Shown: piece by piece, positions 27,526 through 63,714 of the stretch
Layout: every line of letters begins with the position of its first letter
How positions within the stretch are numbered: position 1 is the first letter of the stretch
Notes under the pieces: model-generated
What the model was told of the DNA's origin: nothing
The model's input: only the letters and a program-made list of their open reading frames with translations
Databases searched by the model: none
Source: Planctomycetota bacterium
GTDB taxonomy: Bacteria > Planctomycetota > Phycisphaerae > Sedimentisphaerales > Anaerobacaceae
Direction of reading: 5' to 3'
DNA: 64,000 bases
Assembly (NCBI GenBank): GCA_030605475.1
Contig: JAUWIG010000050.1
Location: 1-64,000 of the forward strand
Program-made: the position numbers and the translations under genes

Positions 27526-27630
27526 AAAACAAACCCAATTTCCTGGATGCTCAAATGAACATAAGTTCTGTTTTAACAAAGTATTATGAAAATGTACGCC
27601 CTCACAGACGCGGGGAAAACAAACCCAATC
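27526..27630 (+). repeat. Dispersed ~100-bp repeat, copy 1
   Basis: AAAACAAACCCAATTT...GGATGCTCAAATGAACRTAA...TTATGAAAAT is shared with 47054-47170. Differences accumulate mostly as substitutions. Both copies contain an ATG-initiated frame (MN-x-x-S...TK-x-YEN...GENKPNQ). In this copy the frame then runs into DNA antisense to ftsK, so it is not called as a gene. Confidence 0.7.
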
Positions 27631-27744
27631 AAACCCAATCCCCCAACCCCCGTTTTTACCCGCCTATGGCGGGTTTACCCCAAAAATCAGGGTATCTGTG
27701 GTTAAATTTCCCCCGTTTTTTCAAATTCTGGATAATTTTACTTC

Positions 27745-32216: not shown

Positions 32217-35200
32217 CTACCACGGAATTCCGTTAATGTATTCTTCGATGTTGGTGTAACCGTCACTGTCCCGGTCACCTGCGCTGTCGTCAACATCCGG
32301 ATTCAATCCTCTTGCGGTTTCCCAGTCATCCGGCATTCCGTCATCGTCGCTGTCGGTCGGCGGGGAGCCGCCGGAGAGATTTGGCCAGCCGCCAACCTCG
32401 GACGGGTTATCGATGAAGCCGCCGGTCCCATTCAGGACGTCGTCAATTATGCGTTCGTCCACAGAGTCCTGCTGTGGCAGCGTAGCGCCGCAATCGGCAA
32501 GTACGTCGTCATACACGTCAAACACGGAGTCTGTCGTTACAGATGGGACGTCGTAGGGCGAGGTCGCCTGCTCATCGGCAAGGTCGGGATTGTTTACGAC
32601 GAGCCATTCGTCGCCGGTGCCGTCCGGCCGATATGGCCCGATGTTATCATCCACGTACACGCCAAGATAGCATTCGTTATCGCCTCTTAATCCGACGGAG
32701 TATTTCGTGCTGCCCTCAGGGCCGTTCTTCACATAGTTGCCAACCCAGTTGAGATAGATGGCATTACCGCCTCCGTAGTGCCCGATGGAGCCGCACCAAC
32801 TGTGGAAGTCATAGACGATGTTGTTGCGGAAGTCCACCAGGCCGCCATGGATGCGAGGATTTCGTTCGTCGTTATGGGCAAAGATACAGTGGTGGATGGT
32901 TATATCGGTATTGCCGTTGTTGTCCAGGAAGCCGCAACTGTGGTGCCCTTCGAAGCCAGCCTCATAAAGCCCCTCGGAGATGATACATCGCTGGAGTGTG
33001 AGGTCAGTGGCATCGCCTCCCATATCAACATTCTCATCCGTAGCCCAGGACATTGAGCAGTGGTCGAGTATTACGTTGTAGAAGGCTCCGCCTTCCCCAC
33101 GATTATGCACAGCCTCGACTCTTACGTCGGTTCCACCACCTCCCGTACCTGGTCGGAATCGCATATGGCGGATGACTATGTCGTGTGAGCGGACCTCAAG
33201 GGGCCAATTCTTGATGCAGATGCCGCCCGGAGAGGTCTGCCCGGCAATGGTAATATAGGGGTCGGTAATATCGATTCCCTCCGAGAGACTGATGGTACCG
33301 CTGACCTCAAAGACCACTATACGTGGTCCTGAAGCTTCACAGGCCTCACGGAAGCTTCCCGCGCCGTCGTCGTTGCGATTGGTGACCTTGATGACCGTAC
33401 CGCCTCGGCCGCCGATGGTGTCCGCACCGAACCCCTCAGCGCCCGGGAAGGCCATTACAGGTCCTTCGGGGCGAGTGGTAAAGCTCCAGACATCACCGGT
33501 CGTCGTGCCATAGGCGTTCTTCTCATCGATGCGCCAGTAGTAAGTGGTCTCGTAGTCCATAGTGCCGGGGTCATAAGTGGTGGAGGTCTGGTTGCCTTTG
33601 GACTCTCCCGAATCCGGCGTCGAATCTGTGCCGAAATAGACATCGTGTGAAGTCGCACCGGAGCCGGCGCTCCAGAGCAGGTTCGCATTTACGCTCACAC
33701 TGCCTGCCTGGTGCGAAGGACTCGGGCTGCTTGCCTGTCCGGGTGGCTGAGGCTCCTCGGTTGTAAAGCTCCACACGCTACCGGTTGTCGTGCCGGCGGC
33801 ATTGACCTCATCAATCCGCCAGTAGTAGGTGGTTTCGTAAGCCATTGTGCCGGGGTCATAGGTAGTGCCGGCCTGATTGCCTTTGAACTCAGTTGAATCC
33901 GGCGTTGAATCCGTGCCAAAGTACACATCATGTGATGTTGCACCGGAACCAGCACTCCAGCTCAAATCAGCTTCTATATCTACATCTGTAGCACCGTTGG
34001 AAGGAGACGGATTGCCTGCCTGACCTGGTGGTGGCGGCGGCTCTTCCGTCGTCAAGCTCCACACATTGCCGGTTGTCGTACCGCCGGCATTGACCTCATC
34101 AATACGCCAGTAGTAGGTCGTATTGTAGGCCATAGTACCTGGGTCAAAAGTAGTACCGGCCTGGTTGCCCTGGAACTCACCTGAATCCGGCATTGAATCC
34201 GTACCGAAGTACACATCGTGGCTGTCGGTATCGGAACCAGCCGTCCAGCTCAAATCTGCACTTATGCTCACATCAGTTGCACCGTTGGCCGGGCTCGGAC
34301 TGCTCGCCTGGCCGGGAAGCGGAAGGGTTGTAAAGCTCCAGACAACACCGGTTGTAGTGCCAGCCTCATTCTTCTCATCAATCCGCCAGTAGTAGGTGGT
34401 GCCGGCATTCATCGTGCCGGGGTCATAGGTGGTTGCGGTCTGGTTGTGGATAAAAGCTGGCGGACTGCTCGTGCCGAAGTAAACATCGTGTGATGTAGCA
34501 CCGGAACCAGCCGTCCAGCTAAGATTTTCGTTTATGCTTACCTCTGTTATCCCATCGTCCGGAGACGGATCGCCGGCCTGACCGGGTGCCGAAAGAGTCG
34601 TAAAGCTCCAGACCGGGCCTGGCCAGACATTGGTCTCGTCGATTTCATCGACGCTCCAGTAGTATGTGGTGTTGTACTGCAGGTCGGGGTCGTAGGAGGT
34701 TGCAGTCTGGTTGCCCATAAACTCAGGCGATGAATGGTCGGCATCGGCTACGGAGTCATAGTTGGTACCGAGGTACACATCGTGCGAGTCTGCCCAATCT
34801 CCCGCTTCCCAGCTAAGGACCGCATCAATGGCCACACCTGTGGCTTCATCAGCCGGATTCGGATTGCTCGCCTGACCGGGTATCGTGACGACGTGGACAG
34901 CGTCGACCCAGGCTTCTCCGCCAAAGAGGGTATCTCTGTCGGCGTATAGAGTTGCGGTGCCGGTTGACGGGTCATACTCGACAAGGTCGCCTTTTCTAAA
35001 GGACACGCCGCCTATCGATGAGTTGTAGTCGGTTGACAGTATTAGCTTGCCGTCGTCCTTAACACATGCCCCAGAGAGATTTGCGCTGCTCCCAAAGAGA
35101 TTATGGTCGAAATACAGGCTTGCAGAGACATCATCGCAGTTGCTGGAGGTAAGGTCGCCGGTTATCTCGACGAGGTCGCCGCGGTCGTACGTGTTGCCGC

Positions 35201-37061
35201 TGCCACAGGGAATTTCACAACCGGTGTATGTGACCGAGATTATTATATCGTTGCTGCCGATGCAATGAACGGCATCAAGGTTTCTGTTGCCGCCACCGAT
35301 CAGAGACTGACCATTAAAGAACAGTCTCGCCTCACCTGCCGCAAGGCCGTCTACTGTGGTGTCGCCTGGATTGAACTCGACCACGTTAGCGGCATAGGCA
35401 TAAAACGAGTTGCTGCCGAACAATGCACCATAAAGGGTTGATAAGAGGACATTGCCGTTATCAAGGACACAAAACGCATCGACATTGTAGTTTCCGTTGA
35501 TGAAATCCTCCCGTTGCAGGAACATAGTTGCGGTGACCGGGCCGTCGACGAAGTCACCAGTTGCCTCAGCCAGGTCGGTGGAGTCGATGCTAAGCGTACC
35601 GCCTACCGTCTCATTCACGTATGTTGAGAGGATGATAGTTTCTTCCTCCGCCACCGCTGTCGTCGTCGTGAAACTCCACACCACACCGGTGGTCGTACCA
35701 TTGGCATTGACCTCGTCAATTCGCCAGTAATAAGTTGTATCCTCAGTCATCGTAGCGGGGTCATAGGTGGTTGAGGTCTGGTTGCCCTGGAACGTACCCG
35801 GACTGCTCGTGCCGAAATAGACATCGTGTGATGTTGCACCGGAACCAGCAGTCCAGCTCAAATCTGCTGTTGTATTTACGTTTGTCGCCCCGTTGGCCGG
35901 GCTTGGATTGCTCGCCTGGTCGGGTGGTGGAGGTGGTGCCTCCGATTCGGTCGTAAAGCTCCAGACGTCACCGGTGGTTGTGCCCTGGGCATTGACCTCG
36001 TCGATACGCCAGTAGTAGGTGGTATCGTTAGCCATAGTGCCGGGGTCATAGGTGGTTGAAGTCTGGTTGCCTTTGGACTCACCTGAATCCGGCGTAGAAT
36101 CAGTGCCGAAATACACATCGTGCGACGTCGCACCGGAGCCAGCGGTCCAACTCAAATCTGCTGTTGTGCTTACATTTGTAGCAGTGTTGGCCGGGCTTGG
36201 ATTGCTCGCCTGACCAGGAGGCCCAGGCGGTGCCCCGATGACGTGGACAGCGTCGACCCAGGCATCTCCACCAAAGAGGGTATCTCGGTCGGCGTATAGA
36301 GTTGCCGTGTCGCTCACAGGGTCATACTCGACAACGTCACCTTTTCTAAAGGACAGGCCGCCGATAGATGAGTTGTATCCGGTTGACAGTATTAGCTTGC
36401 CGTCCTTAATACTTACCCCGGTGAGATCTGCGTTGTTCCCGAAGAGATTATGGTCGAGATACAGGCTTGCAGAGATATCAGCACAGTTGCTGGAAGTTAG
36501 GTCGCCTGTTATCTCGATGAGGTCGCTGCGGTTGTACGTGTTGCCGCTGCCACAGGGAATTTCACAACCAGTGTATTGAACTGAGATTATTATGTCGTTA
36601 CTGCCGATGTAATGAACGGCATCAACGCCTTTTTGGCCGCCACCGATCAGAGACTGGCCATTAAAGAACAGTCTTGCCTCACCTGCCGCAAGGCCGTCTA
36701 CTGTGGTGTCACCTGGATTGAACTCGACCACGTTAGAGCCATAGGCAAACAACGAGTTGCTGCCGAATCTTGCACCATAAAGGGTTGATAAAAGGACATT
36801 ACCGTTATCAAGGACACAAAGCGCATTGACATTGTAGTTTCCGTTGAGGAAATCCTCCCGTTGCAGGAACATAGTTGCGGTGACCGGGCCGTCGACGAGG
36901 TCTCCACTTGCCTCGGCCAGGTCGGTGGAGTCGATGCTAAGCGTACCGCCTACCGTCTCATTCGCATATGTTGAGAGGATGATAGTTTCATCGGCCGCAG
37001 CGCCGCTGACCATACCCAACACTAAAACAAACGAAATTAGACATACCAATTTTTTACACAT
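32217..37061 (-). CDS. Secreted multidomain pectate lyase with duplicated N-terminal domain and Fn3-like repeats
   Basis: This is a 1614-residue exported protein. The ATG giving MCKKLVCLISFVLVLGMVSGAAA is preceded by GAGGAGA, and cleavage is likely after AAA. An unknown beta-rich domain (ETIILSTY...VDAVHV) occurs twice, at about residues 25-278 and 474-728. Two Fn3-like modules lie between the copies and five follow (to ~1200), each with the pattern QASNPSPANGAT...DLSW-AGS..SHDVYFGT...YYWRIDE.N..GTTTG.VWSFTT. Residues ~1200-1560 are a PL1-like parallel beta-helix (AFPGAEGFGADTIGGRGG, ITIAGQTSPGG, ILDHCSMSWATDENVD). The C terminus has Asp-rich calcium-type repeats (DSDDDGMPDDWE, DRDSDGYTNIEEY), often seen as a sorting or docking segment. 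It should act on pectin outside the cell. Confidence 0.9.
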   Translation of the reverse strand: MCKKLVCLISFVLVLGMVSGAAADETIILSTYANETVGGTLSIDSTDLAEASGDLVDGPVTATMFLQREDFLNGNYNVNALCVLDNGNVLLSTLYGARFGSNSLFAYGSNVVEFNPGDTTVDGLAAGEARLFFNGQSLIGGGQKGVDAVHYIGSNDIIISVQYTGCEIPCGSGNTYNRSDLIEITGDLTSSNCADISASLYLDHNLFGNNADLTGVSIKDGKLILSTGYNSSIGGLSFRKGDVVEYDPVSDTATLYADRDTLFGGDAWVDAVHVIGAPPGPPGQASNPSPANTATNVSTTADLSWTAGSGATSHDVYFGTDSTPDSGESKGNQTSTTYDPGTMANDTTYYWRIDEVNAQGTTTGDVWSFTTESEAPPPPPDQASNPSPANGATNVNTTADLSWTAGSGATSHDVYFGTSSPGTFQGNQTSTTYDPATMTEDTTYYWRIDEVNANGTTTGVVWSFTTTTAVAEEETIILSTYVNETVGGTLSIDSTDLAEATGDFVDGPVTATMFLQREDFINGNYNVDAFCVLDNGNVLLSTLYGALFGSNSFYAYAANVVEFNPGDTTVDGLAAGEARLFFNGQSLIGGGNRNLDAVHCIGSNDIIISVTYTGCEIPCGSGNTYDRGDLVEITGDLTSSNCDDVSASLYFDHNLFGSSANLSGACVKDDGKLILSTDYNSSIGGVSFRKGDLVEYDPSTGTATLYADRDTLFGGEAWVDAVHVVTIPGQASNPNPADEATGVAIDAVLSWEAGDWADSHDVYLGTNYDSVADADHSSPEFMGNQTATSYDPDLQYNTTYYWSVDEIDETNVWPGPVWSFTTLSAPGQAGDPSPDDGITEVSINENLSWTAGSGATSHDVYFGTSSPPAFIHNQTATTYDPGTMNAGTTYYWRIDEKNEAGTTTGVVWSFTTLPLPGQASSPSPANGATDVSISADLSWTAGSDTDSHDVYFGTDSMPDSGEFQGNQAGTTFDPGTMAYNTTYYWRIDEVNAGGTTTGNVWSLTTEEPPPPPGQAGNPSPSNGATDVDIEADLSWSAGSGATSHDVYFGTDSTPDSTEFKGNQAGTTYDPGTMAYETTYYWRIDEVNAAGTTTGSVWSFTTEEPQPPGQASSPSPSHQAGSVSVNANLLWSAGSGATSHDVYFGTDSTPDSGESKGNQTSTTYDPGTMDYETTYYWRIDEKNAYGTTTGDVWSFTTRPEGPVMAFPGAEGFGADTIGGRGGTVIKVTNRNDDGAGSFREACEASGPRIVVFEVSGTISLSEGIDITDPYITIAGQTSPGGICIKNWPLEVRSHDIVIRHMRFRPGTGGGGTDVRVEAVHNRGEGGAFYNVILDHCSMSWATDENVDMGGDATDLTLQRCIISEGLYEAGFEGHHSCGFLDNNGNTDITIHHCIFAHNDERNPRIHGGLVDFRNNIVYDFHSWCGSIGHYGGGNAIYLNWVGNYVKNGPEGSTKYSVGLRGDNECYLGVYVDDNIGPYRPDGTGDEWLVVNNPDLADEQATSPYDVPSVTTDSVFDVYDDVLADCGATLPQQDSVDERIIDDVLNGTGGFIDNPSEVGGWPNLSGGSPPTDSDDDGMPDDWETARGLNPDVDDSAGDRDSDGYTNIEEYINGIPW

Positions 37062-46433: not shown

Positions 46434-46623
46434 GGGACAGTCACCTATTTAGGGGAAAACTAGGGACAGCCACCTATTAATGGATGGAGACAGTACGCAA
46501 AAACGTTGATTGTCCCTAATAATATCCAGCATCGCTTGTCCGCCATAACTTCAGCGACGGCGGGAGAATCCAGCATCCAGTATCGAAAATCAAGCATCCG
46601 GAATCCAACTTTAGTTCACTTTA

Positions 46624-46683
46624 CCCCGTTAGAAATATTCATTTTTGTCGGATTCTATTATCACTTCGTAATTTCTAACGGGG
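46624..46683. repeat. Intergenic palindromic element with CCCCGTTAGAAAT arms
   Basis: CCCCGTTAGAAAT (46624-46636) and ATTTCTAACGGGG (46671-46683) are perfect 13-bp inverted repeats. The right arm is identical over 13 bases to 57425-57437 inside rsmB, and a relaxed copy lies at 63481-63510. Confidence 0.9.
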
Positions 46684-46802
46684 TTTAGGCACTTTAGCTC
46701 ACTTTAGCTCACTCCTCACTAACGATTATCCAGCATCTCGGAGCTCTGCGGAGACCCCTTAGGGGGAGAATCCAGAATCACAACGGTTAATAAAAAATAT
46801 AC

Positions 46803-46902: not shown

Positions 46903-47025
46903 ATGGCTACCGGGTTTCTACCAATGCCGTCAGGCATCCTGTGGATAACAATTAACCTTGGAGCGAAGCCTGCCCCCTACCTGTTTGTGGGGGGCGGAAA
47001 CCCCTTAGGGGAATTAACCAATTAA
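46903..47025 (+). CDS. Candidate small protein of 40 residues
   Basis: AGGAGGA lies 7 bp before an ATG, the best Shine-Dalgarno in this region, and a near-consensus promoter is about 70 bp upstream. The frame encodes a short, largely hydrophobic peptide (MATGFLPMPSG, then ILWITINLG, ending GNPLGELTN). The last third overlaps a CCCCTTAGGGG palindrome. It is unrelated to anything I recognise. It could be a leader peptide, a small membrane peptide, or a repeat-borne frame. Confidence 0.45.
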   Translation: MATGFLPMPSGILWITINLGAKPAPYLFVGGGNPLGELTN

Positions 47026-47053
47026 CCAATCAACCAATTTTAACAAATTATGC

Positions 47054-47170
47054 AAAACAAACCCAATTTACCGGATGCTCAAATGAACGTAAATTCAGCT
47101 ATAACAAAGGATTATGAAAATAAATCCAATTGGAAACTTGGTGAAAACAAACCCAATCAAAGCCAATTTC
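47054..47170 (+). repeat. Dispersed ~100-bp repeat, copy 2
   Basis: Matches 27526-27630 over AAAACAAACCCAATTT, GGATGCTCAAATGAAC and ATTATGAAAAT. Here the ATG frame at 47083 encodes a complete 36-residue peptide (MNVNSAITKDYENKSN..., ENKPNQSQF) before TAA. Confidence 0.7.
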
Positions 47171-57349: not shown

Positions 57350-58789
57350 ATGGCCGGCCAAAAACCAACAACTGCTCGCCACGTTAGAAATTCTGCGAAC
57401 GGGCACCATCCTACAAAAGGGAAGATTTCTAACGGGGCTCGCAATATCGCAACGGCCGTCTTAAATCAATTCGACCCGGAGCGCAACTACGCCAGCCCAA
57501 TCTTAAATAAACTATTGCAACAAACAAACGAGAAGCAACGGGCCACCGACCTCGTCTTCGGTACTATAAGAAACGCTAATGCCATTGATATGGTGATAGC
57601 CAAATTGGCTGACTGTCCGGTCGAAAGGATACCTGCTAAACTGCTCAATACCATCCGCATTGGGACCTATGAACTTATCTATAGCCCTGCAACCGCTGAA
57701 TATTCAATCGTCAACGAAGCGGTCGAAGATGCCAAAGCCATTACCGGCAAAAAACAGACCGGCTTTGTAAATGCGGTGCTGCGGCAAATCACCAGGCACC
57801 TGACAAATCGCCAAATCCTGCTATCAGAAGCTAACGCCAAAAGAACCATGCCGCAAACGCTTTTGACCGGCTGTGAATTTGACAGTTGTCTTTTGCCAGA
57901 CCCAAAAACTTCACCAGCTGATTATTTCAGTACCGCTTTCTCACTACCCAAATGGCTCATAGCCGATTGGCTGACCGAATTTGGCTTGGAGAAAACCCGC
58001 CAAATTTGCTTCGCAAGTAATCGAAAGCCGAGTATTTACATCAGGCCCAATAGATTGAAAACGACAATACAGGAAATTGCCGAAAAATTCCGTCAGGCAG
58101 GCATTGACTTTGAAATATCAACCGACGAATCGATGCTAAAAATCAAAAGTCCCAGAACGGTAGCGAAACTGCCCGGCTTCGCAGAAGGGCTTTTTAGTGT
58201 CCAGGATATGACAGCTTCGCAGCCGCTACGCCTTCTGGAGCCGCAGCCGACTCAGACAATCCTCGACCTCTGCGCCGCACCGGGCGTAAAGACAACGCAA
58301 TTAGCGGAACTAACCGGCGATAAGGCAAAGATTATCGCAACCGATATTAACAGCAAACGACTGGAAAAGGTCAAAGAAAACATCACCCGGCTCAGGCTAA
58401 ACAGTATAAGTGTCGTTGCATATGAAGACCTGAGGCGAAAAGCCGCTGAAATCGGTTCCTTTGACGCGATTCTGCTGGATGTGCCGTGCTCAAATACCGG
58501 CGTACTGGCAAAACGGCCCGAGGTCCGCTATAGAATAAAACCAAAGGCAATACAAGACTTGACAAAAACACAAAGTAAACTTTTGGAGGCCGCTGCAACA
58601 ATGATAAAGCCGCAGGGTAAAATCTGCTACAGCACCTGCAGTATCAAAGCAAGCGAAAATAACAAGCCTGTAAGACAATTCTTACAGAAATGCCCAAACT
58701 TCAAACTCGAATCCGAACAGCTCACCCTGCCGTCGGCGGCAGGGTTTGACCACGATGGTGGTTACGTGGCAATCACCATAAAAGAATAG
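57350..58789 (+). CDS. rsmB: 16S rRNA (cytosine-967-C5)-methyltransferase
   Basis: RsmB (Sun/Fmu) methylates C967. At 479 aa: an N-terminal NusB-like domain (NIATAVLNQFDPERNYASPILNKLL) and a C-terminal Rossmann methyltransferase with LDLCAAPGVKTTQLAEL, LLDVPCSNTGVLAKRPEVRYR (catalytic PC motif) and YSTCSI (second Cys). The first ~35 residues precede the NusB domain and include VRNSANGHH...GKISNGA, encoded by a palindromic element. Without it the gene would still start at the same ATG. No Shine-Dalgarno is visible; coupling to fmt is likely. Confidence 0.95.
   Translation: MAGQKPTTARHVRNSANGHHPTKGKISNGARNIATAVLNQFDPERNYASPILNKLLQQTNEKQRATDLVFGTIRNANAIDMVIAKLADCPVERIPAKLLNTIRIGTYELIYSPATAEYSIVNEAVEDAKAITGKKQTGFVNAVLRQITRHLTNRQILLSEANAKRTMPQTLLTGCEFDSCLLPDPKTSPADYFSTAFSLPKWLIADWLTEFGLEKTRQICFASNRKPSIYIRPNRLKTTIQEIAEKFRQAGIDFEISTDESMLKIKSPRTVAKLPGFAEGLFSVQDMTASQPLRLLEPQPTQTILDLCAAPGVKTTQLAELTGDKAKIIATDINSKRLEKVKENITRLRLNSISVVAYEDLRRKAAEIGSFDAILLDVPCSNTGVLAKRPEVRYRIKPKAIQDLTKTQSKLLEAAATMIKPQGKICYSTCSIKASENNKPVRQFLQKCPNFKLESEQLTLPSAAGFDHDGGYVAITIKE
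57382..57437. repeat. In-frame GTTAGAAAT palindromic element inside rsmB
   Basis: CGTTAGAAAT (57382-57391) and ATTTCTAACG (57425-57434) are perfect inverted repeats. The right arm extends to ATTTCTAACGGGG, identical to the intergenic copy at 46671-46683. GCTCGC flanks both sides (57374-57379 and 57437-57442), like a short target duplication. Confidence 0.85.
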
Positions 58790-63450: not shown

Positions 63451-63714
63451 CTACTTATTTTTGCCAACCTCGTCAAGACTGTTAGAGACTTTTTCCATTG
63501 GGTCTCTAACGGCGTCAAGACCTGATTTCAGAAACTTTCTCCTCAGCCACCAACAGAGAATATTCAAAACGCCAATCAAAACAAACGCATAGAAAAGCCA
63601 CTGGTGCGACTTGGCAATGAATGCGACCATACCTGCTATCATAGCAAGTCCGCCGATACCCTGCCACCACAAAGCCAAAACTATCCCTGCTAAAGTGATT
63701 AAAAAGCTTGTCAA
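63451..63714 (-). CDS. Small membrane protein, 3' part of a frameshifted gene
   Basis: The 87-codon frame begins at a TTG that directly follows an in-frame TAA, so it is probably not an independent start. TM segments are ~4-30 (ITLAGIVLALWWQGIGGLAMIAG) and ~38-56. WWQGIGG fits the small membrane proteins of the DUF7670-like type that I associate with an RxxARxxGSL N terminus, which is present in the upstream frame. Residues 64-80 (LDAVRDPMEKVSNSLDEV) carry a GTTAGAGAC/GTCTCTAAC palindrome flanked by direct repeats. Confidence 0.6.
   Translation of the reverse strand: MTSFLITLAGIVLALWWQGIGGLAMIAGMVAFIAKSHQWLFYAFVLIGVLNILCWWLRRKFLKSGLDAVRDPMEKVSNSLDEVGKNK
63471..63521. repeat. GTTAGAGAC palindrome with 9-bp flanking direct repeats
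   Basis: GTTAGAGAC (63481-63489) and GTCTCTAAC (63502-63510) are perfect inverted repeats. CGTCAAGAC occurs on both sides (63471-63479 and 63513-63521), as a target duplication would. It encodes V-R-D...V-S-N, matching V-R-N...I-S-N of the rsmB element. Confidence 0.7.

Follow-up and report, generated by a model that had tools for sequence, protein, structure and literature searches.

A palindromic element inserted in frame in rsmB of a Planctomycetota bacterium, very probably mobile, and its relatives in several phyla

The palindrome near the start of rsmB in this genome is very probably a non-autonomous, MITE-like mobile element of about 60 bp, presumably moved in trans and preserving the reading frame of its host gene. 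Copies are dispersed over the genome, flanked by target duplications and in places nested, their sites are empty in relatives, and those in genes keep the frame. The window referred to below is the whole 64,000-nucleotide stretch of DNA that was analysed.

The rsmB insertion and its family in the genome

The rsmB product presents three Pfam domains, NusB (residues 30-149), the RsmF-B ferredoxin-like domain (200-271) and Methyltr_RsmB-F (295-462). NusB begins immediately past the insert, at the residue where the alignment with E. coli RsmB (1SQF) also starts, and the palindrome is thus translated ahead of this domain, as had been proposed from the letters of the window. That sequence-only reading had placed it at 57382-57437; the location is right and the exact element slightly wider (Table 1). 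Read in frame, the element is VRNSANGHHPTKGKISNG, and together its 59 bp and a duplication of 4 bp make an insertion of 63 bp, i.e. 21 codons (HVRNSANGHHPTKGKISNGAR). The GCTCGC reported on both sides is present, and the best-supported duplicated core inside this longer repeat is CTCG.

The N terminus of the protein is MAGQKPTTAR-HVRNSANGHHPTKGKISNGAR-NIATAVLNQFDP, while a relative of the same family, given as an example without the insert, has MTGRSSKTAR-EIATAALNQFDP. In the rsmB DNA of 7 of 7 aligned relatives the empty site is clean and the 63 bp are unique to the window genome. The insert peptide is missing from all 29 relatives' RsmB N termini examined, so that an orthologue with the peptide, named beforehand as evidence against an insertion, was not found among them. 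A search of viral contigs with the RsmB N terminus gave no match. The 21 residues added ahead of the NusB domain probably do not abolish RsmB function.

Table 1 Features in the window, and loci of the copies in prepilin motifs
Feature	Position or locus	Strand	Basis
rsmB (16S rRNA m5C967 methyltransferase), 479 aa, in-frame insert	57350..58789	+	Pfam, 1SQF alignment
Palindromic element in rsmB, 59 bp, CCACGTTAGAAAT...ATTTCTAACGGGG	57379..57437	+	no counterpart in relatives' rsmB
Left CTCG target-site duplication, rsmB copy (wider direct repeat GCTCGC 57374-57379)	57375..57378	+	
Right CTCG target-site duplication, rsmB copy (wider direct repeat GCTCGC 57437-57442)	57438..57441	+	
Second copy of the same family, intergenic and 60 bp long (core of 52 bp, not divisible by 3)	46624..46683	-	
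Left TTTA target-site duplication, intergenic copy	46620..46623	+	
Right TTTA target-site duplication, intergenic copy	46684..46687	+	
Third, shorter copy GTTAGAGACTTTTTCCATTGGGTCTCTAAC, core 63481-63510 (30 bp)	63477..63514	-	covariance model match, 20.5 bits, E 0.005
Prepilin-motif copies	L278, L280, L283, L287 (relatives); L134, L157, L159 (other genomes)		

The right arm ATTTCTAACGGGG is exact at 46671-46683 and 57425-57437, and both copies have the matching left arm that had been described, perfect in the intergenic copy (CCCCGTTAGAAAT at 46624) and with one mismatch in rsmB (CCACGTTAGAAAT at 57379). The window contains GTTAGAAAT...ATTTCTAAC pairs at 46628-46679 and 57383-57433 and nowhere else, and no such pair arose in 100 dinucleotide shuffles. 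Both copies fold, as DNA, chiefly via their outer stems. The proposal that the loops differ and the arms alone are conserved is partly wrong, the interior being conserved in this genome: the 46.6-kb copy, once reverse-complemented, shares TTCTATAAC..GTAATAATATGGTACAAAAAGGGAAA with the rsmB copy, in one family, and another subfamily keeps its fold (see below). A covariance model built from 12 copies recovers both, plus the third copy, which has the arms GTTAGAGAC...GTCTCTAAC and TCAA duplications at 63473-63476 and 63515-63518, and which, 9 codons ahead of the stop, lies open in the frame of a small ORF on the minus strand (63454-63714).

The genome scan suggested by the sequence-only reading yielded many further copies. 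In the window genome (2.4 Mb, 58 contigs) the exact paired pattern was found 12 times and the reversed control 0 times, single arms with at most 1 mismatch gave 131 matches against 5, and the covariance model gave 97 matches with both strands counted. At least 57 paired copies were collected from the matches listed and from stretches of the genome, 3 of them in the window.

The copies share the layout YNNR-[C/T]CCCGTTAGAAxT…AxTTCTAACGGG[G/A]-YNNR, with arms of 13 bp and an element of about 60 bp, typically 59 or 62 bp. The cores collected measure 21-96 bp and the elements about 32-80 bp as a rule, reaching about 104 bp when nested, as at L233:1486-1581 and L260:1526-1621, where each element has its own duplication. 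The constant part of the arms is CCCCGTTAG/CTAACGGGG; the inner part (GTTAGAAAT, GTTAGAAGT, GTTAGAAAC, GTTAGAGAC) is variable yet complementary.

Flanking duplications proved far more frequent than chance allows. A perfect 4-bp direct repeat stands beside [C/T]CCC…GGG[G/A] in 96 of 175 copies (56 distinct ones of the own genome and 119 from other genomes), with 10.5 expected. Among the 56 own-genome copies a perfect 5-base repeat was present at the best offset in 15, compared with an expectation of 1.3 based on mismatched flank pairs; the observed repeat level was matched in 0 of 20,000 flank permutations. Over the 175 copies the target consensus is R-YNNR-Y, the commonest targets being TAAA, TGAA and TTTA, and the outermost element base pair is mostly C:G or T:A. 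A duplication of 4 bp fits best, but a weak correlation between the outer base and the flanking target base (p = 0.001 and 0.006) suggests that some duplications may be of 5 bp.

Several copies with TGAA duplications (L124, L176, L267 and others) lie at apparent start codons, with ATGAA as target. Such a duplication can yield a second ATGAA, and a start codon may then stand on both sides of the element.

Two other kinds of repeat were seen. One, dispersed and intergenic, measures up to about 450 bp, has copies about 70-88% identical and occurs in the window (46994-47169, 27526-27639) and outside it (L215:7517-7987, L218:1159-1635, L241, L262, L214:3461-3876). Some of its copies start with CCCCGTTAGAAAT and finish in a short palindrome, and it appears non-coding; considered as an autonomous element with an arm at each end, it was rejected, as it appears to be an intergenic mosaic with no coding region. 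Long internal direct repeats (about 72-86% identity) at 33475-37008 of the window probably mark a repeat-protein gene region.

In-frame residence, distribution and folded structure

The core length is a multiple of three in 63 of 64 in-frame copies in long ORFs versus 54 of 113 elsewhere (Fisher p = 6e-14; window genome plus contig collection), and only 2 of 193 copies, a set that includes a few from relatives, are apparent gene-breaking insertions. Intergenic copies are also enriched in multiple-of-three cores (34/59, p = 1.5e-4), for which one explanation would be that many donor copies sit in genes. On each strand one frame is blocked by the TAG and TAA of the arms and two stay open, with xPVRN…ISNGx (frame 0) and xPLEI…LTGx (frame 2) as the encoded peptides.

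The hosts are widely assorted and the gene names among them include tsaD, pgk, gatB, polA, trpE and fusA. Pfam identified RsmB, 2-oxoacid dehydrogenase E2, glycogen debranching enzyme, TrpE, HypF, TsaD, HemD, MoeA, phosphofructokinase and ComEC in the own genome, and GatB, a HypE-like AIRS protein, RACo, a class II aminoacyl-tRNA synthetase, ETF, phosphoglycerate kinase (PGK), DNA polymerase I and queuine tRNA-ribosyltransferase in other genomes. When aligned with solved structures from the PDB, the insert corresponds to an exact 19-residue gap in PGK and, in TsaD, to a gap separating aligned blocks. An in-frame copy in a genome of the Patescibacteria group (L341:1501-1563) lies directly ahead of INIIDTPGHVD, a motif from which the host gene reads as elongation factor G. 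In two Phycisphaerae MAGs (L100 and L210) the element occupies the identical position in a HypE/AIRS-like gene, probably an old insertion retained through divergence.

Within prepilin genes 7 copies reside in the motif GFTLIELL or in one much like it, which looks like an insertion hot spot; Pfam N_methyl matches 5 of the 7, 1 of these under the curated cut-off. The right arm, read L-T-G, restores the G ahead of FT (..G-FTPLE...LTG-FTLIELL..), i.e. the cleavage-site glycine, and the prepilin peptidase site is therefore kept.

A scan of GTDB contigs gave at least 114 loci, among the matches listed in Phycisphaerae, Sedimentisphaerales, Omnitrophota, Elusimicrobiota, many Patescibacteria, Desulfobacterota/Deltaproteobacteria, WOR-3, Nitrospirota and a few others. 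Prevalence of the exact pattern is low and patchy: it was found in 6 of 60 family or order relatives and in 4 of 392 Planctomycetota (window genome included in both), in 15 of 380 genomes from the phylum of a Kaiserbacteria (Patescibacteria) genome, and in 3 viral contigs. The reversed-pattern control was 0 in each genome searched with the paired pattern. The viral contigs L326 and L327 have the same copy, close to a small ORF and flanked by TTCA duplications. As the source genomes are MAGs, some of the cross-phylum matches could be binning errors; wholesale binning error is disfavoured because several genomes (UBA1562, JACQWV, JACPHD) have their own loop families, spread over many contigs.

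A subfamily common to Patescibacteria and Planctomycetota forms a perfect three-way junction, with a 12-bp outer stem and two inner hairpins, and folding energies as DNA of -28.7 and -29.8 kcal/mol (z about -10). In an alignment of 16 such sequences 97.2% of cells pair, 13 of the 15 inner pairs have changes on both sides, and the covariation score is 0.388 compared with 0.132 when shuffled and at most 0.081 when slid. Since the 16 sequences were hand-picked for the fold, the alignment demonstrates its conservation in this subfamily but not in every copy.

Mechanism and alternative explanations

We propose that the ends, [C/T]CCCGTTAGAAxT and its inverse, would be recognised by a trans-acting enzyme, which in some subfamilies might also read the folded element. 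The presence of a target duplication is what suggests such an enzyme. It would cut an R-YNNR-Y site with a 4-bp stagger and insert the element, and gap repair would leave the central 4 bp duplicated. As element plus duplication is usually a multiple of three and, on either strand, two of the three frames run through both arms without a stop, insertions in genes could survive as short extra peptides at tolerant sites, frame-shifting ones being removed by selection. A broader interpretation, which we advance tentatively as possible rather than probable, is a cross-phylum class of gene-invading mobile palindromes in which recognition would involve the invariant CCCGTTAG ends and, for some lineages, the DNA fold of a three-way junction, and in which the length, 4-bp duplication included, would be tuned to a multiple of three so that the palindromes reside mostly in functioning genes.

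The mobiliser was sought in the carriers, although not exhaustively. No autonomous copy, i.e. no long element with the same ends, turned up in carrier contigs totalling about 0.8 Mb or in stretches of the own genome, and no arm pair spanned a transposase ORF in the fetched loci. Arms are nearly always paired (3 unpaired versus 324 paired matches). Transposases of the DDE_Tnp_1_4, DDE_Tnp_1, DDE_5 (PF13546) and DDE_Tnp_1_2 (PF13586) types are absent or rare in carrier genomes, and those of DDE_Tnp_1_4 and DDE_Tnp_1, the two families whose loci were checked for arms, are not flanked by them. IS1380, DDE_Tnp_1, DDE_5 and DDE_Tnp_1_2, being absent, rare or unlinked in carriers, were rejected as partners. 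No transposition event was seen between near-identical strains.

Y1_Tnp genes, present in 9 of 11 carriers (no match in G018 and G065), speak for a REP-type repeat that a RAYT / Y1 tyrosine transposase would move by way of single-stranded hairpins. Short palindromes fit this explanation, and the covarying inner stems of one subfamily's three-way junction indicate that a structure may be recognised. We nevertheless consider it unlikely, since elements lie within about 1.5 kb of only 1 of the 30 Y1_Tnp loci and flank none of them, and since 4-bp target duplications, which Y1 transposases are not expected to produce, are present. A GTAG or CGTC tag as defined in PMC3733652 was not found either. 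An integron-like attC site, moved by a site-specific recombinase that reads folded DNA, is suggested by the likeness of GTTAGAA to the attC GTTRRRY core and by the subfamily whose structure is more conserved than its sequence. It is highly improbable: the core order is inverted in all copies (GTTAG...CTAAC, not RYYYAAC...GTTRRRY), there are no cassettes, and the short duplications flanking the copies are of varied sequence.

Perfectly conserved arms, covarying inner helices and copies that adjoin genes would also suit a functional hairpin (RNA regulator, terminator or translated leader) held at its sites by selection and not mobile. This is largely refuted because the sites are empty in relatives; moreover, copies are strewn over unrelated genes and intergenic DNA on both strands, target duplications flank them, and Rfam gave no match other than a tRNA, so that we give this reading very little weight, about as little as the attC one or marginally more. 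Chance similarity or a low-complexity coincidence, for which the weakness of a case built on two copies in one window might speak, has a negligible probability, being ruled out by the shuffles and the reversed control. The mobile element moved in trans remains by far the best explanation.

Relation to known systems and significance

The ends of piggyBac/IS1380 elements begin with CCC, have an arm with TAGAAA and are flanked by a 4-bp duplication of the YNNR type (TTAA for piggyBac). From this description the elements found here would share all three features; they differ in that the IS1380-type transposase PF13701 is found in 0 of 11 carrier genomes. With the MITEs RUP, Correia/NEMIS and ERIC they have in common small size, terminal inverted repeats, target duplications and the lack of a transposase gene. 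They are MITEs by definition (short, terminal inverted repeats, target duplication) save for a known partner: no IS partner was found here, unlike RUP, which is tied to an IS family, and in-frame residence in essential genes is common rather than exceptional. Most bacterial MITEs end in TA according to PMC2229807. GTAG- and CGTC-tagged REPs are likewise short palindromes, found in several phyla and some of them intragenic, and those of the CGTC type have no dedicated transposase (PMC3733652); in contrast, the present elements have no unpaired tag, their ends are paired and target duplications are present.

In behaviour the elements come closest to the Rickettsia palindromic elements (RPE; Ogata et al. 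2000; PMC2229807, PMC10969869) and to the protein-coding palindromic repeats of Wolbachia (Ogata et al. 2005, cited in PMC2229807), which are also palindromic and non-autonomous, intergenic as well as in frame in conserved genes, and add a peptide. RPEs measure 105-146 bp or about 150 bp, and their target duplication is entered as '?' in PMC2229807. The elements here are in-frame palindromic repeats too, but they are shorter than 105-150 bp, have clear 4-bp duplications and R-YNNR-Y targets, occur in phyla outside the Rickettsia lineage and, in one subfamily, form the covarying three-way junction; they are not classed as RPE, being set apart by size. In a literature search of incomplete coverage, none of the matches listed describes the arm sequences or the peptides that they encode, all of them being unrelated.

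A 2024 review considered a similar process in other prokaryotes as merely conceivable (PMC10969869). In-frame protein-coding palindromes, so far those of Rickettsia and Wolbachia, are now documented in several uncultured phyla, together with target-site duplications, empty sites and very basic host genes such as those for EF-G, GatB, DNA polymerase I and phosphoglycerate kinase. The movement of the element is now testable, dozens of copies being listed with precise ends and targets. The family also accounts for stretches that recur in proteins predicted from these phyla, 'xPVRN…ISNGxK' and 'FTPLE…LTGFT', and such element-encoded stretches can mislead gene models and structure predictions.
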